Source: Gammaproteobacteria bacterium
GTDB taxonomy: Bacteria; Pseudomonadota; Gammaproteobacteria; Pseudomonadales; Pseudohongiellaceae
Direction of reading: 5' to 3'
DNA: 64,000 nt
Assembly: GCA_008081045.1 (NCBI GenBank)
Contig: VMDC01000021.1
Coordinates: 1-64,000 of the forward strand
Below the pieces are notes generated by a model. The model saw only the letters and a program-made list of their open reading frames with translations. It ran no database searches and was not told the DNA's origin. Within the stretch, counting starts at the first letter, position 1. The number at the start of each line of letters is the position of its first letter. Positions 14,686-30,350 of the stretch are shown piece after piece. The position numbers and the translations under genes were made by a program.

Positions 14686-15438
14686 CTAATCAACAGAAGC
14701 AACCAGACCATATTCTGCAGCCCGCTGATTATGGCGGGCATGTTCGATATAACGTTCTGACATCAGGTAGAGATAGGTCTCGGTCAGCTGAATTGATTCC
14801 CGAAGAAAGGCAAATTTCGGATCCGTTTCCGGCAGAGTATGTTCTGCGACCTCCAGCCGCGCCAGGAAAATTCTACGCGCCTGCTGAAGATGCTCCTTTC
14901 GCTTACCGTCTATATTCGAGTTGAACGCATTGACATGCCAGGACGAGACTTTTTGCAGACCGGATTCCAGCCTTTCGTCGTCTGTGTCATAGAGTCGCCG
15001 ATACAAGTGCTCCAGCAGGCCATATTTGTTGTCGACTGCCTGCCAGTTTTCCAGCGCGACTTCGCTGGTGATCATGCGCTCCACGATCGGTATGAGCGAT
15101 TGGTGGTAGAGGCCGTTTGAAACCCTGGCAATCTGCCAGGCCTGTGCGAACAGCTCGGAAGCAGAATCATGATCACCCTCCTCCTGAAATCTCACAGCGC
15201 GGATCATGATGGCCTGCGTGTCAGTGTCGAGGTACGGCGTAAAAGGGGTCTCCAGGACCGGGAGTGCTTCCTGAGAGAGGCTGACTGGCGAGCCGTATTC
15301 AGTTTGAGCGGGGTTTGCTGACTCTGCAGCTTCGCTGTCTTCAGTGACAATCCCCAGCAGCCCGCTGAGCACAAACGCCGTTAAGACTGGCGCCAGGGTG
15401 CGATTCCCAAGGGTGTTGCGATCGAATGTCAGAGTCAT
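14686..15438 (-). CDS. Exported TPR-like hypothetical protein
   Basis: 250 residues. An N-terminal hydrophobic stretch (about 16-33) looks like a signal peptide. The mature region is all-helical with TPR-like spacing (RAVRFQEEGDHDSASELFAQA, then several long amphipathic helices to about residue 235). AAAGG lies upstream of the ATG. It lies downstream of the eight-gene MoxR/VWA operon on the same strand, but an AT-rich gap of nearly 300 bases with its own possible regulatory site separates them. Function is unknown; a scaffold role is only inference. Confidence 0.65.
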   Translation of the reverse strand: MTLTFDRNTLGNRTLAPVLTAFVLSGLLGIVTEDSEAAESANPAQTEYGSPVSLSQEALPVLETPFTPYLDTDTQAIMIRAVRFQEEGDHDSASELFAQAWQIARVSNGLYHQSLIPIVERMITSEVALENWQAVDNKYGLLEHLYRRLYDTDDERLESGLQKVSSWHVNAFNSNIDGKRKEHLQQARRIFLARLEVAEHTLPETDPKFAFLRESIQLTETYLYLMSERYIEHARHNQRAAEYGLVASVD

Positions 15439-15733: not shown

Positions 15734-17755
15734 TCAGCGGTAGGTCCGGTTCGCAACCAGCACCTCTACCAGGAGCAGCACCATCACCAGCGTCAGAATC
15801 CACCACCACAATCGCTGCGGATTCTCTAATTCCTCAATCAACTGGGCGGTCTGCGCTTCTCTGGACTGCAATGGACTGGTATCAGGATTCACAACCGCAT
15901 CATAGAGGGTCGATGTCGCCACCCGAGTGAAGTTGCTTTCCTCTGGCAGAATGTTGACCGCATACCGCCTTGAGACGGCACCCGACGTTGCGGTAAAAAG
16001 GCCCGGCGATGTCGCACGCTGCAAGTTGTTGGCTTCCAAACTGACGGAGCGCCCGTTCGCATCCTGCACCGCAACATCAGCATCCGACACAAACTGCGCC
16101 AGATTGATGCTGTCGCCGATCTCGTAAGCGCTCTGGCCCGCCTCTGAGCGAACCAGGTGTCGAAGCGTTTCGTGCACAAATGGCAAAAACAGCCCCTGCA
16201 GCGCGAGATTATTCCACTCAAGATCAAGGCTCGAGGCAAACAGCAAGACCTTACCTTCACCGACATCATTCTCTACCAGCGCCGCTTCCGTATTATCGAA
16301 CTGCATCAGCACTTTGGCATCCTCAGAGGGCGTTAGGCGCCAGTGACCCTGAAAGCGTGCTGACCAGTCGCTACCCAGAGGGCGCAGAATGGGATGGCGG
16401 CGATCATAGTCCGCAATAACGAGGTAGTCATCACGACCCAGCAAGCCTACTTGCTCCAGCCTGGCCGGGCTGATTTCTCCCAACTGCTGATTGAATGCCC
16501 TTTCATCGACCCTGTCACCGGGCGCAATCAGCAGGCTGCCCCCGTTGACGACATATTCACCCAATGCCGCAGCCTGAGAACTCGTGAGTTCACCGACGTT
16601 CAGCAGCGCCACCACATCGCTTTGGCGCATCGCTGCCGCGCTGAGCTCAGCAGGATCAATTGTCTGGAGGGAGAACGGAGAGGAGTCAGTACTGCTTACC
16701 GCCAGACCAAACCAATGACCCTCATCGTCAAACCAGTTATCCGAAGCCTCGCCGTTGACCAGCAAAACATTGATCTTGGGCAGAACATCAACAGTGAAAT
16801 AGTAGGCATTGTCATCTGCGAAATCGTCACCCGCGATCCTGATTTCACCGACGTAGTCTCCCTCTGCCTCAAAATCTACGGCAAAGGTCACCACCTGCTC
16901 AGACCGGTCAGTAAGGTCGACCGGTCTGCGGTCGACCATTTGCCCGTTCAGGCTCAGGCTGACCTCTCCGCTGCCAAGATACTGTGTCCCAGTGGAGCGG
17001 ACTCTAGCCAATATTTGCTGCTGAGCAGAATCCTCAAGCAGCTGTTCAGGAGATCTCACATCGGTCAACACCAGATTTTCACTGTCAGCGGAACCGACAT
17101 CAATCAGATACAGAGCCACTCCGGGAGCCAGTTTCCACGACTCATCGGCACCTTGCAGCCCGACTTCTTGAAAATCAGAAATCAGATAAATTGCGCGATT
17201 CTCATAGCGCGAATCCTCCAGCATCTGATCTGCCAGACGCAGATTCGGATAATAGCGAGTGCTGCCAAACCCGGGCTCGTCAAAGCTTTCGATCAGCTCT
17301 CTGAGCTGGCCATCCTCTGTGTCGAGCTCACGAACCACTTCCGCTGCGCCCGAAAAAGCGATCAGGCCAAGCTCATCACCCCCTGACAACCGATCCACAA
17401 CCGCCAGAGCCTCGGCTTTCGCCTGATCAAAATTGTCCTGCCAGCGCATACTCATCGACAGATCCAGTAAGATCACTGCCGACTGAGGATCTGCATCAAG
17501 CAAGCGCGCCACAGACTGATTGAACAGAGGCCGGGCAAACGCGAGCACCAGCAAGACGATCACTGCGGCGCGCAACAGAAGCAGCGCTATCTGCTGGAGA
17601 TGTTGGAACAGCACCAGTTTTTTTGAGGTTTTTTTCAAGAACCGGATGGTGCTGAACATGACTTTGGGCGGTTTTTCCCGACGGATAAGATGTATCGCGA
17701 CAGGAATCAGGGCCGCCAGCAAGCCAATCAAAAAAAGTGGAGTAAGAAATACCAT
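15734..17755 (-). CDS. BatA-type VWA membrane protein
   Basis: 673 residues. The N-terminus has the BatA signature: two membrane helices around the RREKPPKVMFSTIRFLKK block (residues 1-78). A von Willebrand A domain follows with an intact MIDAS start DLSMS at 98-102. Further on are a beta-rich region and an amidotransferase-like fold (about 330-500), and a C-terminal membrane helix ends the protein. It is the last gene of the operon, 15 bases after DUF58. MoxR-DUF58-BatA sets are thought to assemble or activate envelope complexes through a MIDAS-dependent chaperone step. Confidence 0.85.
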   Translation of the reverse strand: MVFLTPLFLIGLLAALIPVAIHLIRREKPPKVMFSTIRFLKKTSKKLVLFQHLQQIALLLLRAAVIVLLVLAFARPLFNQSVARLLDADPQSAVILLDLSMSMRWQDNFDQAKAEALAVVDRLSGGDELGLIAFSGAAEVVRELDTEDGQLRELIESFDEPGFGSTRYYPNLRLADQMLEDSRYENRAIYLISDFQEVGLQGADESWKLAPGVALYLIDVGSADSENLVLTDVRSPEQLLEDSAQQQILARVRSTGTQYLGSGEVSLSLNGQMVDRRPVDLTDRSEQVVTFAVDFEAEGDYVGEIRIAGDDFADDNAYYFTVDVLPKINVLLVNGEASDNWFDDEGHWFGLAVSSTDSSPFSLQTIDPAELSAAAMRQSDVVALLNVGELTSSQAAALGEYVVNGGSLLIAPGDRVDERAFNQQLGEISPARLEQVGLLGRDDYLVIADYDRRHPILRPLGSDWSARFQGHWRLTPSEDAKVLMQFDNTEAALVENDVGEGKVLLFASSLDLEWNNLALQGLFLPFVHETLRHLVRSEAGQSAYEIGDSINLAQFVSDADVAVQDANGRSVSLEANNLQRATSPGLFTATSGAVSRRYAVNILPEESNFTRVATSTLYDAVVNPDTSPLQSREAQTAQLIEELENPQRLWWWILTLVMVLLLVEVLVANRTYR

Positions 17756-17770
17756 GCTCTGCTACTGACC

Positions 17771-18664
17771 CTAGAAGCTTTTCGCGCGTTTTGACATGTA
17801 AGAAGACAGAGCCTCGTCTAGGGGTTCTGCGGTATTCAGCAGACAGTAATCCACACCACTGCTCTGACACTTCTTACGGCAGTAGGCAAGAAATTCATTC
17901 AGATTTTCCAGATACGCCTGCCGGATCGCGGCGGGCGAAGTGGTGTAAGACTCATCGTCTTCCATATCAATAAATTCGGAGGCTTCATTGAATGGAAAAT
18001 TCAGCTCCGCATCGTCCATCACCTGAAAAGTAATGATGTCGTTTCCCATTCCCCGAAGGTTTTGCAGGGTGTTGATCACCCTCTCCTCATCATCCAGCAT
18101 GTCTGTAATCAGTATCACAATACTCTTCTTATGGAGCGAGGCCGCCAGATCGGTAAGGGGTTTGACCGTATCGGTTTTCTTGCCTGACTCCACCTGCGAG
18201 AGTGTCCTCAGAATCCGGAGCAGATGCGGTTGTCTGGTTTTCGCAGGAATGTATTCTCTGACCTGGTCATCAAACGTGATCAGACCAACGGCATCTCGCT
18301 GTTTCATAATGAAATAGGACAAAGCAGATGCCAGGGTTACGCCATAGCTCAGCTTGCTCATCCCACCGGAGCTGTAGGCCATTGATGCGCTGGTGTCGAG
18401 CAGAATCACACAGCGAACATTGGTTTCGTCCTCGTATTGTTTAATATAAAACTTGTCACTCCTGGCATAGAGCTTCCAGTCTACGTGACGCAGATCGTCG
18501 CCACGCTGATAATGGCGGTAATCGTTGAATTCGACGCTGAATCCCCGATTCGGGCTCTTGTGCAACCCGGACAAAAAACCCTCAACGACGACCCGGGCGC
18601 GTAATTCGAGATTGTCGAGCCCCGACAGCACATTGGGATCAAGAAAGTTGATTGACTCTGCCAT
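17771..18664 (-). CDS. DUF58-domain VWA-like protein
   Basis: 297-residue soluble protein. The DUF58 hallmark (from FNDYRHYQRGDDLRHVDWK, about 46-64) precedes a VWA-like fold with DTSAS at 90-94, an intact MIDAS-type motif. The partner MoxR ATPase lies 34 bases upstream and the BatA-like protein follows, the standard MoxR-DUF58-VWA order. It probably bridges the ATPase and the membrane VWA protein. Function is inferred from family context. Confidence 0.88.
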   Translation of the reverse strand: MAESINFLDPNVLSGLDNLELRARVVVEGFLSGLHKSPNRGFSVEFNDYRHYQRGDDLRHVDWKLYARSDKFYIKQYEDETNVRCVILLDTSASMAYSSGGMSKLSYGVTLASALSYFIMKQRDAVGLITFDDQVREYIPAKTRQPHLLRILRTLSQVESGKKTDTVKPLTDLAASLHKKSIVILITDMLDDEERVINTLQNLRGMGNDIITFQVMDDAELNFPFNEASEFIDMEDDESYTTSPAAIRQAYLENLNEFLAYCRKKCQSSGVDYCLLNTAEPLDEALSSYMSKRAKSF

Positions 18665-18698
18665 GATTTTTCCGCTGAGTTAATGTCTGCGAATCGAA

Positions 18699-19727
18699 TC
18701 AGATTTCCGAACTGGGTTCAGGAACTGCCTCCAGCAGTCGCCTGATGACCTCATCTGTCGTAATCCGCTCTGCCTCGGCGTGGAAATTCAGCAAGATACG
18801 ATGCCTGAAAACAGAAGGCGCCAGGGCTCTCACATCGCTGAACGAAACATTGTAACGGCCCAGCAAGAGTGCCCTGACCTTTCCCGCCAGAATCAGGTTC
18901 TGCGAGGCTCGAATGCCTGCCCCCCAGCTGACCCAGTCCTTGACAAACTCCGGCGCAGATTCGCTTTGTGGCCGCGATGCGTGCACCAGACGGACCGCGT
19001 ACTTAATGACTGCTTCAGCAGCAGGCACCTGACGGGCAATTCGCTGAAAATCCAGGATATCCTCACCGCTGAGGGGATGGGAGAGTGCGCGATCGTGATG
19101 TTGGGTCGTTTGGCTTACGACAGTCACTTCATCATCCTCGGACAAATAACCCAGCTCGATTTTGAACATGAACCGGTCAAGTTGTGCCTCAGGCAACGGG
19201 TAGGTGCCTTCAAGTTCAATAGGATTCTGGGTCGCAAGCACAAAAAACGGCTTCGACATGGGGTGCGTGACTCCGGCCGCGGTCACCTGACGCTCCTCCA
19301 TGGCTTCAAGCAGTGCCGACTGCGTCTTGGGCGGCGTTCTGTTGATTTCATCAGCCAGCAGAATATTGGTGAATATCGGCCCTTTCACGAACTTGAGTTG
19401 TCGACCACCATCCGATTCTTCCACAAGCTCTGAACCCACGACATCAGCTGGCATGAGATCAGGGGTAAACTGGATACGGCTGAAGTCGACCTGCAAAATG
19501 TCAGCGACCGTTTTAATCAACAGTGTTTTGGCAAGACCCGGCACTCCTGTGACCAGCACATGGCCACCACCAAACAGGGCAATAAGTAACTCATCAATGA
19601 TGTCATCCTGGCCCACAATGACTTTTTTAATCTCAGCGACAATCTGGTCGCGACCATCCTGCATGCGTTTGACCAGGGCTATATCATCCTGATTGTCGAT
19701 CTCCAGCGCTTGTTCTTGTTCCGCCAT
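18699..19727 (-). CDS. MoxR-family AAA+ ATPase
   Basis: 342 residues from ATG 19727, which has AAAGGA seven bases upstream; a GTG at 19751 next to the previous stop is a less likely start. Walker A is GVPGLAKT (61-68), Walker B is ILLADEINR, and the sensor-like ATQNPIE and EAQLDRFMF motifs are present. MoxR ATPases act with VWA proteins as metal- or cofactor-linked chaperones. Here the VWA partners are encoded both just downstream and four genes upstream in the same operon. Confidence 0.9.
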   Translation of the reverse strand: MAEQEQALEIDNQDDIALVKRMQDGRDQIVAEIKKVIVGQDDIIDELLIALFGGGHVLVTGVPGLAKTLLIKTVADILQVDFSRIQFTPDLMPADVVGSELVEESDGGRQLKFVKGPIFTNILLADEINRTPPKTQSALLEAMEERQVTAAGVTHPMSKPFFVLATQNPIELEGTYPLPEAQLDRFMFKIELGYLSEDDEVTVVSQTTQHHDRALSHPLSGEDILDFQRIARQVPAAEAVIKYAVRLVHASRPQSESAPEFVKDWVSWGAGIRASQNLILAGKVRALLLGRYNVSFSDVRALAPSVFRHRILLNFHAEAERITTDEVIRRLLEAVPEPSSEI

Positions 19728-19751
19728 GGTGTTGTCCTTTGTCTCTGCCAC

Positions 19752-20579
19752 TTAGTGGCTGAATGCGTAGATTAAAAAGTTAATGCCAATCTTATAAGCT
19801 TCATTGGTGAACTGGGTGGGATAGCCCTCGTAGAAAGTGTGTTCCCAACCATCCCCAAGATCGGTGTTGTAATTCGCAACCATCATGACCCTGCCGTCAT
19901 CATCCAGCACAGCATAAACCTCAGGTGGATAGCTTGGATCATCCAGATTCATGAAACCACCGAAATCCCAGGTCACCATCCTGCCCGGCACCTGAGCGAC
20001 TTCATCTATGTCAAAGAAGGTATGGAAGATTTCATGGCTGGTATCCAGCTTGATGATTTCGCGGTCAGGAAAAATCTTGCCCATTTCCATGAACATGTCG
20101 TCAAGGTGCGGCTCTCCCCAGAAATCGTCCACCATCACAAAACCGCCGCGGAACATAAATTCGCGCAAAGCCTCTATTTCTTCCTCAGAAAAATTCGGGC
20201 CGCTGAAGGATGAGCCTATGGGCACGCGTTTCCAGTTCATGTACAAAAAAATGTGTTCGAACAGACGCGGATCGGTCAGCTGGATAAAGGTTCGATTACG
20301 GGGATTGGTATCGACGTTGGTATAGCGCTGCACGCCGCGCAGGAAGTTCTCATCGGAATCCGGGTAGTCAGTATCCCACCAACCACCGCGCCGCCGCCAG
20401 CCATAGCCCCCGGCCCCGCCGCCGTGGTTGGTGTATTGGCCCCGAAGCCAGGTAAATTCGGTAACGTCGGTGCCATAAATCGAAAGATCCTCGTTATTGC
20501 CGGATAGCGGCATCACCTGAGCACCAAGCTCCAGCGAAACGATCAGACTCACCATACCGAGAAGGGGCGCCTTTATCAC
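19752..20579 (-). CDS. DUF4159 exported protein
   Basis: 275 residues with a short signal peptide. An early Gly/Trp/Arg-rich patch (HGGGAGGYGWRRRGGWW) precedes the DUF4159 core. In that core FMFRGGFVMVDDFWGE and SHEIFHTFFDI resemble an amidotransferase-like alpha/beta fold without an obvious catalytic Cys. The start overlaps the stop of the TPR-peptidase gene by four bases (ATGA), so translation is coupled. DUF4159 proteins usually occur with MoxR/VWA clusters and have no proven activity. Confidence 0.82.
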   Translation of the reverse strand: MIKAPLLGMVSLIVSLELGAQVMPLSGNNEDLSIYGTDVTEFTWLRGQYTNHGGGAGGYGWRRRGGWWDTDYPDSDENFLRGVQRYTNVDTNPRNRTFIQLTDPRLFEHIFLYMNWKRVPIGSSFSGPNFSEEEIEALREFMFRGGFVMVDDFWGEPHLDDMFMEMGKIFPDREIIKLDTSHEIFHTFFDIDEVAQVPGRMVTWDFGGFMNLDDPSYPPEVYAVLDDDGRVMMVANYNTDLGDGWEHTFYEGYPTQFTNEAYKIGINFLIYAFSH

Positions 20580-23296
20580 CTGCTGCCGTCCCCCTCGATC
20601 GAACGCAGCAACAGACGTTGTGCGCGCTCATAACTGGGCGCCTGTTCCAGGGCATACAGCAAATTTTGTTTGGCTTTACTTGCCTGCCCGTTGTTGAGAT
20701 AGGCTTGCGCCAGGTTCGTACGGGCTTCAACCGGATCGCTGATCTCGAGCTGCATCAAAACTTCATATTCAGTGACCGCCGCAGCGCTGTCATTGACCGT
20801 CTCAGCATACCGCGCCTTCAGTTCATGAACCTCACTGCGATAGGGGTCGACCTGAATCGCCCGATCCAGGAAATAGGCGGCCCGCTCAAAATCAGAATCC
20901 TCCAGAGCTGCTTGGGCCAACACCATGGCAGACCCATAGTCATGCTGGAGATTTTCCATCAGCACTTCAAGCCATTGCAGACGGGATTGTCGGTTGCCTT
21001 CACGCTCATAAATTTGCGCCAGCACCAGGGCCGGGCTCGGATAACCGGTGTAGCTTGGCAGCATTTCATGCGCTGTTTCCAGATATTGCTTTGCCTCGGC
21101 AAATGATTCTTCCTTGAACAAAACAATTCCCAACTGCAGATAAGCCTGAAAATCTCTGCTGTTTTCCTCAATACGCGCTCGCATATGCTGTTTGAGAGAG
21201 GCATTGTTATATAGCTCCGCAAGGATCGCGCTGCTGTTCTCGCGAATTCCGTGGCCGTGACCGTCCCCTTCATCCGGCACATCTTCTGTGTGCGCATACA
21301 CATTAATCTCTTTCACCCGCTGATCAATCCAGCCCCGGAAACCCGCGTCAAAATCATCGATGTCGAGTTCAAAAACACTGCGAAAGCGGTCGGCATCTTC
21401 CTTGATCTCACCGTACTGATAAATCAGTTCAACCAACTTTTCAAAGCCATAAGTCTGTGCGATGTAATCCACAACCAGATAGGACTGAAAATAGGCAAAA
21501 CTGAGGTCTGCATTATTGCGGGCCCCCGAAAAGCCACTGTTCAATTCGCCCACCGGCAAAAGCTTCTGCTCCTGAGCTGCCCGAATCAGGTCTAAACCCT
21601 GACTACGCCCCCAGTAAGGCCGGCCCTCTCTTTCCTCCCAGACAGAGATACCCTCTGACAACCACCTAGGCATGCGGTTCTGGGTCATCTGCAGGGTGAT
21701 GACATGCATAAATTCATGCCACACAATTTCCTGCCAGTTCGCCGTCAGGGTGTCCGGCGAAATTAGGGTGATTACCTTGCCAAAACAGATTCCAACCAAT
21801 GGGCCGATGTCTGGAAGACCCACGGAGCGCACCGCAAAGTCCGCACTGTTCTCGAAGACTTCAATAAGAATCTTGCTTTCGGGCTCAAAGCCGTATTTTG
21901 CCGTGAGCGTCTCCCAACTCTCTTCGAGCAAGGGTTCCAGGTAAGGCCATAGGATAAGTGAATCCCTCTCACTCATGTGCACTTTGAAATGCTCACTCTC
22001 AACCGTGGCGTAAGTTTCCAGCGTATCGAAGACTTTCAGCATGTTGGAAGTCATCACATTAAACGGATCATTATCGAACCCGGTCTCGAGGCTTTGTCTC
22101 CCTTCCTCCTCCTCACCCAGGCGTATCAGGTTGCTACCCAACAGCGTATGACCCTGCCAGTATTCAGGATCGGCCTCAATGCTGGCGCGCGCGTAATGCA
22201 CTGCCTCCTCGAACCGATAATTATTTCCGAAGCTGTCTGCGATATGCCCTAGAAATTCAGCGTTGCCGGGGCTGAATGCTTCAACCCGCTGTTGATAGCC
22301 GGCAAAATCGTCCATGCGCTCTTCCAGTGCCGCCGAGGCCGCTAGCACACTGAGCGTTTTCAGAGATTCGGGATTCAGTTCCAGCACTTTGTCGAAATAC
22401 TCTTCAGCTTCCTGCTCACGCCCATTAATCATCAGAAGCTGAGCATAAGTCTCCAGCGCCTGCACCGAGTTTGGATTGATGGCCAGCGCCCGCTGCAAAG
22501 ATCTTTCATCACCCACGACCTGCGCAATGCCCACCAGCGCCGGCACGTATCGGGCATTCACGTCCAATGCGTCCTGATAGCTTCGCTCAGCATCGGCTGC
22601 GTTATATTTCTCCAGAAAAAGGTCAGCCCAGAGGGTGTGGGCCTCCAGATTGTTGGGGTTTGCTCTGGTGGCCTCATCAAACAGGCTGTTGGCATCATGA
22701 AAATTGCCCAGTAACCAACTGGCCAGTGCGACCATCGCAACATCCTCAGAGCTGAACACCAGTCCCGCGTTATAGCGCTGCACCACTCTGTCAAGCACCT
22801 GCCGCCACTGTTCCTGTTGTCCGGTAAATTTGAGAAGGCTGCCGTACTGAACCAGGCTTCGCACCGGCGGTTCCGCATTGCCTCCGATTGCCTGCTGCAG
22901 GATGTCCAGCGCGGCGCGCGATTGGCCTGTCATGCGTTTGATTTCAGCCAGTTGGGTGCTCAGAAGCGGGAAGTCTGCGTATGCGTCACCCTCAATTGCC
23001 TCTGCAACAAGATTTTCCGCTTCCAGATAATTCCCCATCATAACGAGTGCTCTGCTGGCACCAATCAGACCATCGATACGATCCAGACCATCGGCTTGTC
23101 TGAATATTTCACTGGCAGCAGCGTACGACCCGGCCAGCATCAACTCCTCACCCCGAAAAAGCGCAGAATCCTGATTTGTGGAGAGCACATCCTGGGCAAG
23201 AACAACAGGCGCCGGAGCCACCACAAAGACAAACAACACGGACCAAACGGCAGGCAATTTTTTCAGAGATTGATAAGTAAGCATGACTTGCACCAT
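20576..23296 (-). CDS. TPR protein with an HExxH (gluzincin-type) peptidase domain
   Basis: 906 residues with a signal peptide (cleavage near VVLAQ). Many TPR-like helices fill about 45-420. A zinc-peptidase-like domain covers about 430-660, with HEFMH at 527-531 and a downstream Glu in WLSEGISVW near 548, matching the peptidase MA-like group. More TPRs follow to the C-terminus, after a His-rich patch (DGHGHGI). The start (23296) touches the upstream stop; ATG 23284 is an alternative. All zinc ligands look present, so it may be an active periplasmic protease inside the operon. Confidence 0.8.
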   Translation of the reverse strand: MVQVMLTYQSLKKLPAVWSVLFVFVVAPAPVVLAQDVLSTNQDSALFRGEELMLAGSYAAASEIFRQADGLDRIDGLIGASRALVMMGNYLEAENLVAEAIEGDAYADFPLLSTQLAEIKRMTGQSRAALDILQQAIGGNAEPPVRSLVQYGSLLKFTGQQEQWRQVLDRVVQRYNAGLVFSSEDVAMVALASWLLGNFHDANSLFDEATRANPNNLEAHTLWADLFLEKYNAADAERSYQDALDVNARYVPALVGIAQVVGDERSLQRALAINPNSVQALETYAQLLMINGREQEAEEYFDKVLELNPESLKTLSVLAASAALEERMDDFAGYQQRVEAFSPGNAEFLGHIADSFGNNYRFEEAVHYARASIEADPEYWQGHTLLGSNLIRLGEEEEGRQSLETGFDNDPFNVMTSNMLKVFDTLETYATVESEHFKVHMSERDSLILWPYLEPLLEESWETLTAKYGFEPESKILIEVFENSADFAVRSVGLPDIGPLVGICFGKVITLISPDTLTANWQEIVWHEFMHVITLQMTQNRMPRWLSEGISVWEEREGRPYWGRSQGLDLIRAAQEQKLLPVGELNSGFSGARNNADLSFAYFQSYLVVDYIAQTYGFEKLVELIYQYGEIKEDADRFRSVFELDIDDFDAGFRGWIDQRVKEINVYAHTEDVPDEGDGHGHGIRENSSAILAELYNNASLKQHMRARIEENSRDFQAYLQLGIVLFKEESFAEAKQYLETAHEMLPSYTGYPSPALVLAQIYEREGNRQSRLQWLEVLMENLQHDYGSAMVLAQAALEDSDFERAAYFLDRAIQVDPYRSEVHELKARYAETVNDSAAAVTEYEVLMQLEISDPVEARTNLAQAYLNNGQASKAKQNLLYALEQAPSYERAQRLLLRSIEGDGSR

Positions 23297-24433
23297 TTAG
23301 CGATTGAGAGCTGACTGCGACTCCATCGACTCATCTGCGGAGTCGAGCGCAGAGGATGTCGAGGCAAACTCAGAATTAAAGCGAGCAGTGCTGCGCGCGA
23401 GACTGACCAATAGATCTTCCATCTGCTGCCAGTATTCAGCTTCAAGGTATTCCGCCTTTCTGCCTCGCAGTACGATCACAGATCTTTCCAGGTCCTGAAT
23501 GCGGGATTTAAGCGCGAGCCCCTCGGCGGACAGGTTCTCGCCTTGCTCAATCAGAGAGTCAATATAGGCGATTTCGGCAAGACGCCCATCGGCAATATCC
23601 ACGGCAGGGTCAAGACTGAACAGCGCATCACCATTGTCATCCAGACCTGCATGTTCGGACGCCAGGCGACCCTGCTCTTCATACCACAACTCAACATTGG
23701 CCTTGGCATATTCGAATGCCTCCAGCATGGACACGCGGTTATTCTTGTCCCGATCTCCGTTGCGCTGATCGAGGGCCTCAATGAAGTATCCGGAAAAAAC
23801 GGGATCGTAGCGCTCTGAAGAGGAACGGGTTGATGAGATCACCACCCGCCCTTCACTGGACAGCGAAGACGAAAAACCAAAGCTCGCGCTGGTGGTGTTA
23901 ATGATGACCATATCCTGCTGATCGAACCGGTCCAGTAGTGAAGCGAACTGCACTCCCGTCATATCCGGACCGACGATATTGAACTTGGCTTCCTGCTCGG
24001 CACCGGATCCGTGACCAATGAGATAAAGCGTAATCTGATCACCCGTCTTAACGCGTTGCGCAAGTTGCTCGAGTGCGAGTTCGATTCCCTCCCGGCTACA
24101 GGCGCCATCGACCCGGTTGCCACCGGTAAAGTCACCATCGCCGTCGTCATAGAGCAACGTGATCGTTTCGGAACTGTAGCCGTAATCCCGCGTCAGGATG
24201 TCATGCAGAGACAGAGACCACTGACGAAAACGCGCCGAATTGTCATTCCCGACGGCCGGTCCGGTCATAATAACTGCATATTTTGTGGTTTCGGGAGTGT
24301 CGAGAAAGCGACTAGCAGACAGATCCGACGTTAGATTCTGTGCGCTTGTCAGCCCTGCCAGAACCAGCCCGCACAGAAAAACCAGCGCTCTGCCAGCCAG
24401 GTCTTTCACTGTGATTGCAGTCAAATTTTCCAT
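23297..24433 (-). CDS. Caspase/legumain-fold (C13/C14-like) protein, probable pseudo-peptidase
   Basis: 378 residues from ATG 24433, which overlaps the upstream stop by one base (TGATG). A signal or membrane segment spans about 13-32. A caspase-like domain follows: YAVIMTGPA, the LIGHGSG block with His141, then DMVIINTTSASFG where catalytic Cys is expected in relatives (e.g. NSCHSGG). Here the aligned residue is Ser or Thr (180-184), with no Cys nearby. A helical, acidic C-terminal tail (about 300-378) follows. It may be an inactive binding module. Confidence 0.72.
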   Translation of the reverse strand: MENLTAITVKDLAGRALVFLCGLVLAGLTSAQNLTSDLSASRFLDTPETTKYAVIMTGPAVGNDNSARFRQWSLSLHDILTRDYGYSSETITLLYDDGDGDFTGGNRVDGACSREGIELALEQLAQRVKTGDQITLYLIGHGSGAEQEAKFNIVGPDMTGVQFASLLDRFDQQDMVIINTTSASFGFSSSLSSEGRVVISSTRSSSERYDPVFSGYFIEALDQRNGDRDKNNRVSMLEAFEYAKANVELWYEEQGRLASEHAGLDDNGDALFSLDPAVDIADGRLAEIAYIDSLIEQGENLSAEGLALKSRIQDLERSVIVLRGRKAEYLEAEYWQQMEDLLVSLARSTARFNSEFASTSSALDSADESMESQSALNR

Positions 24434-26736
24434 CAGGACAAACCTTTCAGTCGTCGCGCCGTCCAGTCCAGACTCAACAGACTGATTAACAGGGCAAGTA
24501 GCCACGGCTGATCCCACAGATCAAGGCTGACCTGCTCTGAGTAGGCATTGGGGGTGAATTCAACGGCGCTGGCCAGCTGATCAATGTCAGCAAGATCAAA
24601 ATAGGTTCCACCACTGAGCTCAGCAATCCGCCCGAGCAATCCCGTATCCATGGCAGCGTTATTGAACTCCCGAAGGGAAGGGGTCACCACAAAAGGCACC
24701 TGCTTTTCAGACTCTCCCGAGCGTCCCTCGCCCGCTGCGCTGGCAACATCCACGAGCAGATCATAAACCCCCTCTTCTTCAACCTGGAAGCTGCCACGAT
24801 AGACACCGTCTTCCTCAATATCCCACTCCATAGACTGATCCAGAAGAACGTCGAGCGGCGCATTGACCTGCATCCAGAGCGTGGCGTCGTTATCAGGCTC
24901 GTAATCCATATCCAGCACAGTGGCTGTAACATGAACTTCATCGCCAACATTATAGAATTCCCGATCAAATTCGACGGTGACTCGCTCAGGCGCGGAGACA
25001 GCAAGCCAGCGAAGCAACTGCCTCCAGAGAGCCTCATGAGACTGATCTGCAGCTGCCATCATCATCTGCCACCGCCAGGTGCTGGCAGTCGTCAGCGCGA
25101 CGCTTCGGCCGCTGCCGTAACGCTGCGTTGTAAGCACCGGTAGAGCCTGATTCTGATACTGCAGTAACGGGTGCTCCATCAGCACGGTTGCTCCGGGCTT
25201 GATTCGGCCTGTCACGAATACCCCCTGCAGCTCCGGCAGTTGCCGCCAGCGCGCGACATTTTCTCCATCATCGCCTGACAAGCGCAGCAGAGGCGAAAAC
25301 TCGCCGTTGTTGGTCAGCCGCGGAAAAAAGGGTTCTCCAGTTGGATGGCTCCCCCGGCGGATACCTCCACGCAGATGAGAGGGCAAAAAGCTCTCCTCGA
25401 CCAGGCTCACTGGCAGCACATCTTCTACCGGCGTGCCGATGAATTCTTCATCAATCATGCCGCTCATCAGAAATCCGCCGCCACGCTCAGCGACGAATTC
25501 CTGAATCATCTGCAGTTGATCGGCGTTAAAAAACCCCTTCTCAATATCACCGAGAATCAGAGCTTCGTACTGGTAGAGCTCTTCCTTTGACCGCGGGAAA
25601 CCGCCACTGAGTTCGGTAGGGGTATTAATACCCTGTCGGTAGTATTTCTCCGGCCCTGTCTGCAGATAGGTAGCAAGCCGAACCGATTCATCATCTTCTA
25701 CCGCCCTGCGGATAAATTTATATTCATTGCGCGGGTGCCCTTCAATATAAAGAATATCAAGTGGCGCTTTTTCCGTATTATCCACCAAAAACTGATAAAC
25801 ATTATTTTCCGCGATGATTTCATCGCTCTGCAGTTCAACTTCCAGATCATAAACGATCGCGTCGGGACGCGCCGGCGTCAACTCAATCTCATAGCGGCGC
25901 GTCACCCCGGCCGCGCCAAGAGTGACCATGTCTGATGCCACTTCCTGATCACCATCGAGAATAGAGATTCTGACCTGCTGACCCGAATAGCCTTCTTGAT
26001 TGATGCCGACTGAGACATTGAAGACAGAGCCTTCCAGCACGGTTTTCGCAGTATTGACGTCCACGATGCCGATATCCTGGGGGATCTGCTCCTGCCCAAC
26101 ACCCACTGTAAAAACCGGAATATCTCGATTGCCAAAATCCAGCGCCTTATCAAGGGGATCCAATTCGCTGTTATCCGCGCCATCGGTCAGCACAATCAGC
26201 GCACCCAGAGGAAGCCCTCCGAGCTGAGCATCCACATACTCGAGAGCCTGACCGATTGAGGAAGCTGTACCTGAATCGCCCAGCCCCTCTGCCCCGGCGA
26301 TTCGCTCGGCCGTTTTATCGAACCTGAAACTGCGAATCTGGAAATTCTCTGCCAGCTCGTCGAGGACTCCGCGGCCATAAAACCTTTCGCGCATGGCCTC
26401 CCGCCTGGTTTGGCCTGCCGGCATATCGGCAATCGCCATGCTCTGTGAATCATCAATGAGCACCGCCAGATACGTTTCCTGAGGTGCAACCTGAAGTGTC
26501 GTAATTACCGGGCGCAGAAGACAAAACAGCAGGATACTCAGCACACTGGCGCGTAAGGCAATGAAAAACGCTTTCCAGGGAGACGACAGCGGGCGGGTCG
26601 TCTTCCGATAGCCAAACCAGACACCGGCCACAATCAAAACGACCAGAGACAGGAAAACCAGGGGACTGACGCCGTAGGCGAAGTCGACGCTTCCCTCAGC
26701 CAGGGCAGTTAGCAAATTAGGTTCGGTGTATTGCAT
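24433..26736 (-). CDS. Membrane VWA / glutamine-amidotransferase-like protein
   Basis: 767 residues. Two N-terminal membrane helices (about 24-42 and 56-78) lead into a periplasmic VWA domain with a MIDAS motif DDSQS at 95-99 and LTDGADNS later. An Ig-like region and an amidotransferase-like domain (about 345-560) follow, containing LDILYIEGHPRNEYKF and ERGGGFLMSGM, with no catalytic Cys obvious. A C-terminal membrane helix closes the protein. It overlaps the next gene by one base and starts two bases after the DUF4175 gene, so the set is tightly coupled. Confidence 0.82.
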   Translation of the reverse strand: MQYTEPNLLTALAEGSVDFAYGVSPLVFLSLVVLIVAGVWFGYRKTTRPLSSPWKAFFIALRASVLSILLFCLLRPVITTLQVAPQETYLAVLIDDSQSMAIADMPAGQTRREAMRERFYGRGVLDELAENFQIRSFRFDKTAERIAGAEGLGDSGTASSIGQALEYVDAQLGGLPLGALIVLTDGADNSELDPLDKALDFGNRDIPVFTVGVGQEQIPQDIGIVDVNTAKTVLEGSVFNVSVGINQEGYSGQQVRISILDGDQEVASDMVTLGAAGVTRRYEIELTPARPDAIVYDLEVELQSDEIIAENNVYQFLVDNTEKAPLDILYIEGHPRNEYKFIRRAVEDDESVRLATYLQTGPEKYYRQGINTPTELSGGFPRSKEELYQYEALILGDIEKGFFNADQLQMIQEFVAERGGGFLMSGMIDEEFIGTPVEDVLPVSLVEESFLPSHLRGGIRRGSHPTGEPFFPRLTNNGEFSPLLRLSGDDGENVARWRQLPELQGVFVTGRIKPGATVLMEHPLLQYQNQALPVLTTQRYGSGRSVALTTASTWRWQMMMAAADQSHEALWRQLLRWLAVSAPERVTVEFDREFYNVGDEVHVTATVLDMDYEPDNDATLWMQVNAPLDVLLDQSMEWDIEEDGVYRGSFQVEEEGVYDLLVDVASAAGEGRSGESEKQVPFVVTPSLREFNNAAMDTGLLGRIAELSGGTYFDLADIDQLASAVEFTPNAYSEQVSLDLWDQPWLLALLISLLSLDWTARRLKGLS

Positions 26737-26738
26737 GT

Positions 26739-29700
26739 CTACTGTCTCGGGCTGTTGGACCCCTGACCTTCTGACAATACACGATAGTATTCCTGAACCA
26801 GATCCCGATACTCCTCAGGCACCTCTTCATCGAAAGACGCGTACAGCTTGTTGTTGATGTTGTCGAGTTCGGCTTGAGCGCGCAGCGCACCTTCGAGCTC
26901 GACAATCGGCTGGAGCAGCTGACGAAACAACTCCGGTTGATTGATGAAATCCTCGATGTCCTGCTGGGTCAGTTGCTGCCTGATCGAACGGGCATTTCCC
27001 CAGGGCAGATTGTTGCCGTCAGTGTTGATCGCTCCACCCATGCCGGCGCGCTGCTCACTTTCCCCTCGGGCACCGCCGATTTGCTGTCGATTACCACGAG
27101 CACCCGCTTGCCCGGCCTGTGTGCTCTGCTGTCCGCCCCTCGCCTGATCACGCAACTGGTTTTGCAGCTGTTCAGCCAGCTGCTGGCTGCGCTGCAGCTG
27201 CTCGCGCATGTCACGAAGACTCGGCTGCGTGCCCAGCTCGCTACCACTGTCGTTGAAAGCCAGTGCCTGTTGCTGCAACGACTCGATCTGCTCTCTGAGG
27301 TTTTCTGCATCTTCCGCAGCGCGTTGGAGCTGATCAGATTCAGAACCCTGATTCGCCGGATCGAGCCCCGCCAGAGAATCGGCCAGCGCTATGAGCTGAT
27401 CTTCAATTTCCTCTTCGATATCAACCGCGAGATTCACCATACCATTGCGCAGTACACGGCTGCTGGTAGACATCTCTTCACGAATCGGTCGCAAGTCGCG
27501 GCTTGCTTCTTGAGCCTGCGACATAAGCCGCTGGTCTTCGTTACTGCCACGGGCGATGATCGCTCTCAGCATATCTTCAATTTCTTCCAGATCCCGTTGC
27601 TGCTGCTGTTGCGCCTGAATAAGCTCCTGCAAGCCTTCATCATTGCGCACTGACTGACGCGTCTGTCCCAGTCCCTGCTGTCGGCTGGTTTCAGCGATTC
27701 GCTCCTGTAACTGCCGCTGCTGCTGCAGCAACTGCTGTCCGCGCTGACCCAGATTCTGCGCCAACTGATTCACCGATCTCTCGCCCTGTTCATTCAGCTG
27801 CTGCTGTTGCTGCCGCAGATTTTCCAGAGCTTTCTGGCTCCGCGCCGCCGCGATGGAAGCAGAATCGCTTTCCGCCGCCTCCTGCATTTGCTGTGCTGCG
27901 CGCTGAATGGCACTGTCGCGCTGCTGAGCAGCGGAAGCACTGCCGCCGGACGCTGACTGCGACTGACTGCCATTCTGCGGCGTAGACTGGCCGCTCTGCT
28001 GACCTCGCGACATCTGCTGGGCCAGCTGCGCCACCTCGCGGCTCAGCTGTTCCTGCTGCCGCATCAGACGTTCCAGTTCACGGCGTTTCTGCTCTTCAGT
28101 CATCTGGTCTTCCCGCCGCGCCAGATTGCGCTGCGCCCGGGTCAAACCCTCCTGGCGCCGCGCGAGCTCTTCCAGTTTGTCGATCTCCTGCTGATTCTGC
28201 TGAGAGCCTCCCCCGCGGGAGTTAGGCGTTTCATAGCGGTTCTCCAGCTGGCCCATTTCCATTTCGAAAAGCTCTCTGAGATCTTCGCGCTCTTGCTGCG
28301 CCGAACCCCCACCACCGCCACCACCACCTTGCTGCATGCTGATATTCGTGCGGTTGATGTTTGCTTCTGCCTTAAGAATGTATTGTAAAGCCAGCTGTTC
28401 AGGCTGAAGGGCACTGGTAATCTGCACTTTATCCAGCTCACCCGCCGCCAGATTCATCTGCTCAATAGCCAGCGACAGATTCTCGACCGCCGAGTCATAG
28501 GTATCGTCTGAAAAATTCAATCGCTCGGCCAGACGATCAATCGACATCCTCGCTCGACCGGTTGCCTCGCGCTGAGATTCGGCAATAATTTCGGCATCAG
28601 CGCCGAACTCCTCCGGGGATACCTCGCTCTGACGATTACGCAACTTCCAGGTGGCCGCAATGATGTCTTTCTGGACTGACACCAATGCGCTGCTGTCACC
28701 ACCCTGACCGCCGCCGGCACCCTGTCCTCCACTCATCCCGGGATTTCTGCGAAATTCCTGATCTGTAGGGATGATCTGCAGGAAGTAGATATCGGAAATC
28801 ACCTCAGCCGGACCGTCCAGGCCGTTGTTGTCGGCAAGCGTGAGAAAGTAACTGACAAAATCTCCCGGTTCGACTTCAAGGTCTTCAAGATAAATCAGCT
28901 CGCTGCCGGAAACGCTGCGAACATTCGCTTCAGAGAGGAAATCCACTTCGACCTCGTCTGAACCCACCACACTGTAATTCAGAGTAAACTCGCTCAGTCC
29001 GTAATCATCGCTGGCATCCACCTCCAGCACCACTTCCTCGAGCGGCATCACTTCCTGATCGCGCCCCGGACGCCGCAAGGAGAGCTCCGGCGGCGCATCC
29101 TCAATGGTTCTAATAAAATAATCCAGCGGCTCCTGACTCTCCAGGCCAGCCAGATCGGTAGCGAATATGCGGTAGACCCCATCCCGGGTCACGGTGAAGC
29201 TCGCGCTTCCGATATCACCATCGATTTCCAGATCCAGATCAGGATAAGCAGTCAGTTCCGACCCGCCCCCCTCAGAATCCCGATAGCTTTCCCCGAATTC
29301 CACTCGAGCGGTGGCAATAGCTTTGTTGAACTGAATGTCCAGTGCAACCTGCGTGCCTTCCGGCACGATCATGTCCCCACTGCCCTCTTCTGTGGTATCG
29401 GTCAGCCGGGTGTAGTCAGGATAATCAAACGCCAGATTGATCTGCTCGATTTGAGGCAAATCAAACAGGTTGATCTGATATTGTGGAGAACTCTGCTGTC
29501 CCCGCTCCTCAAAGGCAACGTAATAGGTCGTATCCGCCTGCAAGGACGGAATAAAATAACTGTAGGTCGCACTGTTGCTGCCGCTGCCATCCCGATTCAT
29601 CGACACAGCCTGCCAGTTGACGTTGTCGTCCTGCAGCCTCAGATCGATGCTGTCTGGCGCTGCGTTGGACACGCGAGCAATGATTGTGACACTGCTGCCG

Positions 29701-30350
29701 CGCTGTAACTCGAGGTCGCCGGGCTCTACTGAAATTTCAATTTCCGGCAGGAATTCGGTGACAGCCAGTGGCTCGGAGATCGCGAAAGGCCAGGCCAGAC
29801 GGGCACCTGACTTCAGCAGTGATTCTGAATTCAGGAACATTGCCGAAATCACGGAGACGACCGCGACGGCGGCGGCAAGTGTCATCCAGGATTGCTGCGC
29901 GGGTGCCACCGTTTCAACCCTGCGCTGCTGCTCGACCACATGGGTCTGCGCATCTTCCCAGAGCTGCTGGATGAATTGCTGCGACACTCCCGCACGACCG
30001 AATTTGAGGTCGTCTTCGCTGAACTCCAGAGAAGTCAGCAGGCGCTGCTCAAAGTCCGGTATGTGGTCCTCAACATAATGCGCCAGGATCCGGTCATCCG
30101 TGTGGCGACGGCGAAGCAGGCGCAGGAACCGGGCCGTGATCAGAAGTATGGCGAACACGGCCAGTCCGAACAGGATGATAGAGCCTAACTTATCGGGCTC
30201 CAGCCACGCGCCCACCAAGCTGACAGACAAAGCCGAGACGGCCAGAGCAATGACAAAAAGACTCGCAGCCTTGACAAAGAAAAACCTCGCGCGGCGACGG
30301 CGAAGCTGCTGGAGTGTCTGTCGGAGACTTGCGATGGTTGGTGTGGTCAT
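26739..30350 (-). CDS. DUF4175-family giant membrane protein with Gln-rich coiled coil
   Basis: 1203 residues, first gene of the operon. Two membrane helices near the N-terminus (about 27-48 and 57-76) and one around 155-172 anchor a periplasmic beta-rich part (about 200-540) typical of DUF4175. From about 560 to 1130 the chain is extremely Gln/Arg/Glu/Ser-rich and predicted coiled coil, with Gly-rich patches. It resembles a long periplasmic tether or scaffold. The low-complexity part makes exact domain borders uncertain. Confidence 0.82.
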   Translation of the reverse strand: MTTPTIASLRQTLQQLRRRRARFFFVKAASLFVIALAVSALSVSLVGAWLEPDKLGSIILFGLAVFAILLITARFLRLLRRRHTDDRILAHYVEDHIPDFEQRLLTSLEFSEDDLKFGRAGVSQQFIQQLWEDAQTHVVEQQRRVETVAPAQQSWMTLAAAVAVVSVISAMFLNSESLLKSGARLAWPFAISEPLAVTEFLPEIEISVEPGDLELQRGSSVTIIARVSNAAPDSIDLRLQDDNVNWQAVSMNRDGSGSNSATYSYFIPSLQADTTYYVAFEERGQQSSPQYQINLFDLPQIEQINLAFDYPDYTRLTDTTEEGSGDMIVPEGTQVALDIQFNKAIATARVEFGESYRDSEGGGSELTAYPDLDLEIDGDIGSASFTVTRDGVYRIFATDLAGLESQEPLDYFIRTIEDAPPELSLRRPGRDQEVMPLEEVVLEVDASDDYGLSEFTLNYSVVGSDEVEVDFLSEANVRSVSGSELIYLEDLEVEPGDFVSYFLTLADNNGLDGPAEVISDIYFLQIIPTDQEFRRNPGMSGGQGAGGGQGGDSSALVSVQKDIIAATWKLRNRQSEVSPEEFGADAEIIAESQREATGRARMSIDRLAERLNFSDDTYDSAVENLSLAIEQMNLAAGELDKVQITSALQPEQLALQYILKAEANINRTNISMQQGGGGGGGGSAQQEREDLRELFEMEMGQLENRYETPNSRGGGSQQNQQEIDKLEELARRQEGLTRAQRNLARREDQMTEEQKRRELERLMRQQEQLSREVAQLAQQMSRGQQSGQSTPQNGSQSQSASGGSASAAQQRDSAIQRAAQQMQEAAESDSASIAAARSQKALENLRQQQQQLNEQGERSVNQLAQNLGQRGQQLLQQQRQLQERIAETSRQQGLGQTRQSVRNDEGLQELIQAQQQQQRDLEEIEDMLRAIIARGSNEDQRLMSQAQEASRDLRPIREEMSTSSRVLRNGMVNLAVDIEEEIEDQLIALADSLAGLDPANQGSESDQLQRAAEDAENLREQIESLQQQALAFNDSGSELGTQPSLRDMREQLQRSQQLAEQLQNQLRDQARGGQQSTQAGQAGARGNRQQIGGARGESEQRAGMGGAINTDGNNLPWGNARSIRQQLTQQDIEDFINQPELFRQLLQPIVELEGALRAQAELDNINNKLYASFDEEVPEEYRDLVQEYYRVLSEGQGSNSPRQ

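Follow-up and report, generated by a model that had tools for sequence, protein, structure and literature searches.

The window analyzed here (64,000 nucleotides, positions 1 to 64,000 of contig VMDC01000021.1, from a gammaproteobacterium of the family Pseudohongiellaceae) carries eight near-touching open reading frames (ORFs) on one strand. They encode a DUF4175-like protein, a membrane protein with VWA and GATase1-like domains (VG), a legumain-like pseudopeptidase (pseudo-legumain), a metallopeptidase flanked by TPRs, and DUF4159, MoxR, DUF58 and BatA-type proteins (Table 1). An ORF check found all eight where the original prediction, made from the letters of the DNA, had placed them, and its claim that the genes touch or overlap in this order is borne out by gaps of 2, -1, 0, -4, 0, 34 and 15 bases in the order of transcription, the -1 being a TGATG overlap at the VG/pseudo-legumain junction. 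The longest ORF of the pseudo-legumain gene starts at a GTG at 24517; the ATG start is used in Table 1. Pfam and PADLOC scans covered nine proteins of the window.

Table 1. Genes of the operon in order of transcription, with window coordinates
Product	Length	Coordinates	Strand	Basis
DUF4175-like protein	1203 aa	26739..30350	-	Pfam, hydropathy
VWA/GATase1-like membrane protein (VG)	767 aa	24433..26736	-	Pfam, model
Legumain-like pseudopeptidase	378 aa from ATG	23297..24433	-	predicted fold
TPR - Peptidase_MA_2 (gluzincin) - TPR protein	906 aa	20576..23296	-	Pfam
DUF4159 protein	275 aa	19752..20579	-	Pfam E 3e-37, hydropathy
MoxR AAA+ ATPase	350 aa	18699..19751	-	Pfam AAA_3 E 2e-63
DUF58 VWA protein	297 aa	17771..18664	-	Pfam E 2e-47
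BatA-type protein	673 aa	15734..17755	-	Pfam BatA E 4e-16, VWA_2 E 2e-14, TIGR02226 E 2e-18

Conservation and co-occurrence of the eight genes

Within the genus the pseudo-legumain gene is present in 67 of 73 genomes, the six without it being 68-89% complete, and the full set of eight occurs in identical order in 18 of the 19 congeneric loci read at length, the 19th ending at a contig edge. Beyond the genus, one of 44 other relatives searched carries pseudo-legumain, and a genome from another family of the order (G096) has all eight genes with DUF4159 first and DUF4175 last. In a class-wide sample of 274 genomes, DUF4159 scored above its cut-off in five (the window genome, G208, G279, G328 and G372), and all of these except G279 have pseudo-legumain. 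The eight genes lie together in G328, the locus of G208 ends at a contig edge, and G372 has seven genes together and its DUF4159 genes elsewhere. Weak pseudo-legumain matches in four further genomes of this sample (G149, G191, G252 and G347; E 9e-6 to 9e-4) were excluded as members. A small predicted secreted protein is encoded downstream of BatA (14686-15438), with a counterpart at the same place in 13 of the 19 congeneric loci.

A scan of named genomes returned 494 relatives of pseudo-legumain, the best 80 of which were analyzed, many of them in short stretches; their titles name Gemmatimonadota, Acidobacteriota, SAR324, Gammaproteobacteria and one Acidimicrobiia bin. All eight genes are together in 25 of these 80 loci, which include the window's own genus as well as other groups, and the full set is thus found also in Acidobacteriota, Gemmatimonadota, SAR324 and a few Gammaproteobacteria outside the genus. 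Because the same order recurs in 18 of 19 congeneric loci and the complete set in 25 of 80 wider loci, the arrangement is not due to chance, and the predicted membership of the protease-fold genes and DUF4159 in a larger conserved unit is upheld. Directly upstream of pseudo-legumain lies VG in 73 loci, the peptidase in six and a contig edge in one; downstream lies the peptidase in 45, MoxR in eight, DUF4159 in four, a more distant peptidase in three, no operon gene in 13 and an edge in seven. Apart from where DUF4159 lies and in how many copies, every complete order read elsewhere is a circular permutation of VG, pseudo-legumain, peptidase, DUF4159, MoxR, DUF58, BatA and DUF4175, as in the SAR324 contig of L117, which reads peptidase, two DUF4159, MoxR, DUF58, BatA, DUF4175, VG, pseudo-legumain.

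Several loci show local variation. Two Acidobacteriota genomes (G390, locus L233, and G394, locus L234) each carry two versions of the system, the first with VG, pseudo-legumain and MoxR and without the peptidase, the second with all eight genes. In three Gemmatimonadota loci (L097, L101 and L103) several kb of other ORFs separate pseudo-legumain from the peptidase, one of those in L101 appearing transposase-like by eye. Downstream of pseudo-legumain in a SAR324 locus (L127:10741-15503) we noted by eye the start of a TIR-like gene and, after it, a large gene whose start resembles an ATPase.

VG and pseudo-legumain are closely coupled in the two phylum samples, in both of which pseudo-legumain was called at E 1e-10. 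Among 119 Acidobacteriota genomes VG is present in 30 and pseudo-legumain in 29, all 29 within those 30; VG was here counted at the 36 places with E of at most 2e-67, which left out many VWA matches of lower score. Pseudo-legumain lies directly downstream of VG in 32 of 33 places, the exception (G474) having a VG fragment only, and the VG places lacking pseudo-legumain on the same contig are G501:C19, G408:C158, G425:C44 and G474:C288. Among 81 Gemmatimonadota genomes the two genes occur in the identical 44; six weak VG matches (G744, G746, G748, G750, G752 and G754; E 4e-25 to 3e-33), all in genomes without pseudo-legumain, were not counted, and their inclusion would change the figure to 44 of 50. 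Pseudo-legumain was never found without VG in either sample.

Quick, unrooted trees of VG and pseudo-legumain, built with neither bootstrap nor outgroup, agree on three placements: the window genus stands next to SAR324; G096 and G372 are close to a single Acidobacteriota group; and the G208/G328 type falls, together with other Gammaproteobacteria, within the Gemmatimonadota-rich part. L054 and L076 have long branches and an unsure joint place. These three similar placements in both trees suggest about three separate arrivals in Gammaproteobacteria, with VG and pseudo-legumain moving together, subject to the long branches and to possible mis-binning.

The protease-fold pair

The structure of pseudo-legumain was modeled with an alignment of 63 chosen sequences, and its best fold matches are legumains. 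The caspase-hemoglobinase fold is present, so that the original term "pseudo-caspase" stands at the level of the clan and gives way to legumain as the nearer fold. The window protein has no Pfam match by itself, Peptidase_C13 being matched by 26 of the 63 aligned members (best E 2.5e-8), and a hydropathy scan predicts an N-terminal signal or anchor. In the window protein His141 is retained and the cysteine position is occupied by Ser182, a column assignment at which the Cys of intact SACYSG proteins aligns with no nearby gap. Motifs were counted in ORFs with a profile E below 1e-30, or below 1e-20 for pseudo-legumain. Across 106 distinct sequences the catalytic His (GHG) is retained in 105, and the cysteine position holds Ser in 95, Thr in six, Ala in three (L154, L162 and L214), Pro in two (L111 and L156) and Cys in none. 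Five Acidobacteriota members (L129, L141, L143, L151 and L163) have a Cys one residue past this position. Judged from the alignment, the nucleophile is lost in every member of the family examined. Peptidase family C13 (legumain, and PIG-K of the GPI transamidase; clan CD) shares the fold and the GHG histidine with this family, whose catalytic Cys is missing in 106 of 106 sequences. A similar loss on a caspase-clan fold is described for the pseudo-orthocaspases, most of which have Tyr-Ser instead of the His-Cys pair (PMC6426788), whereas the present family keeps the His in 105 of 106 and has legumains as its nearest folds.

The prevalence of hydroxyl residues raises the question of whether these proteins are active peptidases that use serine, or threonine, instead of cysteine. 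The 101 sequences with Ser or Thr at that position, the almost invariant His and a Ser two positions further on, conserved in 63 of 63 aligned members, speak for such an activity. Neither Ala nor Pro, present in five members, can act as a nucleophile, and the pseudo-orthocaspases with Ser for Cys are presumed inactive (PMC6426788). One of the Ala sequences (L214) comes from a genome with a second copy (G422) that may keep the Ser, and L154 groups with L214. On balance we consider an active serine peptidase quite unlikely.

The second member of the pair matches Peptidase_MA_2 (Pfam E 6e-20) together with TPRs, has a predicted signal peptide by the hydropathy scan and retains the zinc site HEFMH...SEG. 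A strict HExxH..SEG pattern missed 26 of 78 homologues; a broader one recovered 22, such that HExxH with a downstream EG, typical of gluzincins, is found in 74 of 78, and the remaining four are fragments of 221-433 amino acids (aa). All 15 genomes checked, each picked as a carrier of VG or of the legumain-like protein, have an orthologue, which is divided between two contigs in G393. By its conserved motif, the TPR metallopeptidase has an intact active site, and no other protease of the set does.

Core components and known relatives

VG matches GATase1_like above the Pfam cut-off (9e-7) and VWA below it (2e-4). In its model (pLDDT 88) the GATase1-like domain sits between the parts of a Bat-like VWA domain, and there are also beta-rich regions and, at either end, helices. 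By structure comparison the VWA domain resembles BatB and an aerotolerance protein of Bacteroides in its fold, and its metal-ion-dependent adhesion site motif (MIDAS, DxSxS) is intact. A class I GATase fold is present, and no Cys or His column that could supply the catalytic residues is conserved in at least 90% of 38 VG sequences, which makes it unlikely that this domain, too, has its enzymatic (amidotransferase) activity. An oligosaccharyltransferase subunit, presumably Wbp1, gave the best Foldseek E-value, though with a template-modeling (TM) score of only 0.19-0.21 over VG; the beta-galactosidases that form the bulk of the list (TM 0.1-0.2) were regarded as multi-domain noise. Sequence searches of the PDB with VG, DUF4159 and BatA returned nothing or weak matches, that for DUF4159 being 4i66 at E 3e-4.

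The remaining proteins retain the features expected of their families. The DUF4175 match (Pfam E 2e-6) falls 0.8 bit below the cut-off; among six relatives scanned, three are above it (L157, L132 and L117), one at it and two below. Three predicted N-terminal membrane helices are followed in this protein by a long Q-rich stretch, coiled-coil by eye. The DUF4159 protein has a predicted signal peptide, and the BatA-type protein two N-terminal helices, a VWA domain, a weak GATase-like region and a C-terminal helix; in total, DUF4175, VG and BatA are the proteins to which the simple hydropathy scan assigns membrane helices. DUF58 has none, and MoxR a single weak stretch (55-73) that overlaps the ATPase domain. 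The Walker A and Walker B patterns are each found in 76 of 77 MoxR homologues and DxSxS in 74 of 74 DUF58 homologues; the metal or ATP motifs of MoxR, DUF58, VG, BatA and the peptidase are conserved almost throughout. Two further, solitary DUF4159 genes occur in the same genome (L083:9454-10233 on contig C1 and L084:4373-5170 on contig C23), one of them after a gene for a ChaN/Tiki-type haem-binding protein; many Gemmatimonadota operons have two DUF4159 genes, and the solitary copies may be a detached second type.

A smaller version of the system is found in other Pseudomonadota. Among 249 genomes the only full-strength VG match was the window's own, and distant VG proteins (E 5e-16 to 2e-31) were found in 25 others, which we take from their gene order to be Alphaproteobacteria. 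Ten of these loci were read. All ten have MoxR-DUF58-BatA-VG, and in nine of them BatA and DUF4159 form a single protein; the DUF4159 part of L205 scored below threshold, and a second, short match to BatA is present in L208. The fusion proteins measure 792-1118 aa, mostly 910-960. No match to pseudo-legumain, TPR-peptidase or DUF4175 was found in the ten 20-kb stretches, and none of the 25 genomes has a member of the pseudo-legumain family. G712 and G696 have weak matches to this family and G279 a stronger one, all three being cysteine-bearing SACYSG proteins that were rejected as members; the weak match in G621 is a piece of an 842-aa frame that stops short of the cysteine region, and G521 has a further weak match. 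G279 itself has MoxR, DUF58, BatA, DUF4159 and DUF4175 matches, with neither VG nor the pair within the 20 kb read. Since these Pseudomonadota cores and G279 lack it, the protease-fold pair is a lineage-specific extension and not a part of every MoxR core. A conserved core without the protease-fold genes, the outcome named in advance as contrary to a single machine, is seen in those lineages; in the Acidobacteriota and Gemmatimonadota samples pseudo-legumain is tied to VG.

The ten loci are presumably of the same type as RL3499-RL3502 of Rhizobium leguminosarum. The window's profiles for MoxR, DUF58, BatA and the VWA/GATase-like protein match 10 of 10 presumed members of this type, which differ from the window in the fusion of BatA with DUF4159, separate genes here, and in having no match to pseudo-legumain, TPR-peptidase or DUF4175 in their 20-kb stretches. 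According to PMC3893208 and PMC5700661, the R. leguminosarum MoxR operon is required for envelope integrity and cell shape; PMC5700661 further assigns a periplasmic location to the VWA domain of Borrelia BB0173.

Two alternatives draw on this smaller set. The operon may encode a chaperone that helps to assemble an envelope or respiratory complex, as other MoxR proteins do, with the peptidase as a side activity; MoxR proteins are described as chaperone-like in protein-complex maturation (PMC3893208), and the Pseudomonadota set does without the pair. Such a chaperone leaves unexplained both the near one-to-one coupling of VG and pseudo-legumain and the conserved zinc site, and we regard it as fairly unlikely. 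Alternatively, the MoxR core and the protease pair could be two modules that share a transcript for expression only, without physical contact. The core stands without the pair in the ten loci, with no family member in those 25 genomes, the peptidase-pseudo-legumain pair lies on a different contig from the core in G408, and six other loci have the pair with no core gene in the stretch. VG is nevertheless found elsewhere in G392 and G408, the two such genomes examined, and presence is tied nearly one-to-one in the phylum samples, leaving independent modules decidedly improbable.

The Bat (aerotolerance) operon shares MoxR, DUF58 and a BatA-type VWA protein with the locus, whereas the nine window proteins gave no BatD or DUF4381 match. 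A separate Bat-type operon (L077, contig C8, 9207-16288) with MoxR, DUF58, DUF4381, VWA, VWA/TPR and BatD genes lies in the same genome, and the eight-gene operon is therefore something other than the Bat operon of this genome. MoxR, VWA and caspase-like parts also occur together in the MoxR-VWA ternary conflict systems (PMC7159879), which would allow an anti-phage or conflict role with a caspase-like effector. The partner genes differ, and the general Pfam and PADLOC scans of the nine proteins, in which no model for these parts was run by name, gave no match to the third components VMAP, iSTAND or FtsH. NCBIfam and PADLOC gave no specific system name; the PADLOC matches (E 4e-4 to 3e-3) are weak and concern the AAA and TPR parts, with MoxR matching DolB (E 4e-4) and IetA and the TPR protein PDC-M71B. 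Together with the presence in 67 of 73 genus members and the predicted envelope signals, this makes a conflict system highly improbable. Among the matches listed from the open-access literature we recognized no description of the eight-gene set; in a search for DUF4159 and DUF4175 one listed paper mentioned either name, PMC7481262 on AdvA of Acinetobacter, and it mentioned DUF4175 only.

A putative envelope machine

Taken together, gene content, order, co-occurrence, predicted folds and the pattern of intact and lost catalytic residues lead us to give roughly an even chance to the reading that the operon encodes one inner-membrane and periplasmic machine, which would enlarge the MoxR-DUF58-BatA-DUF4159-VWA envelope-integrity system and contain a live protease as well as a dead one. 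In such a machine a cytoplasmic MoxR ring and its DUF58 adaptor would use ATP to switch BatA and VG, two membrane proteins that would bind clients on the periplasmic side through the metal sites of their VWA domains, and DUF4175 could link the parts to each other or to the envelope. The periplasmic TPR metallopeptidase would cut under MoxR control, and pseudo-legumain, its nucleophile lost, may serve its neighbor as a non-cutting scaffold, substrate receptor or regulator; the output would be the processing or quality control of envelope proteins. Complex formation, location, the direction of control and the nature of the clients are all proposed here, the envelope-spanning location being suggested by the hydropathy scan and by published work on presumed relatives.

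Several points weigh against this single machine. The support for its location is a simple hydropathy scan, and the machine is known from genes alone for every member. The order runs from pseudo-legumain to MoxR or DUF4159 without a peptidase in 12 of the 80 loci, the peptidase is more than 2.5 kb away in three, 13 have no operon gene in the downstream stretch (10 kb for several), and in six the stretch contains peptidase and pseudo-legumain but none of the remaining operon genes; as these are the best-scoring 80 of 494 loci, other arrangements may be under-represented. The 15 of 15 count for the peptidase comes from carriers of VG or of the legumain-like protein alone.

A more specific version of the single-machine reading, which we think unlikely, is that an anciently inactivated legumain has become the obligatory substrate receptor of the TPR metalloprotease in a MoxR-powered envelope protease complex, a bacterial architectural counterpart of membrane complexes of the eukaryotic ER such as the GPI transamidase, with its legumain-like PIG-K, and oligosaccharyltransferase.

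MoxR-VWA operons are widespread and poorly understood, and the variant described here couples the ATPase to a live and, as its motifs indicate, a dead protease across several phyla. It names a pseudoenzyme family in which the nucleophile is missing in all members examined, and may turn a vague role in envelope integrity into concrete questions, namely what the substrates of the metallopeptidase are and what job is done by a legumain without its cysteine.

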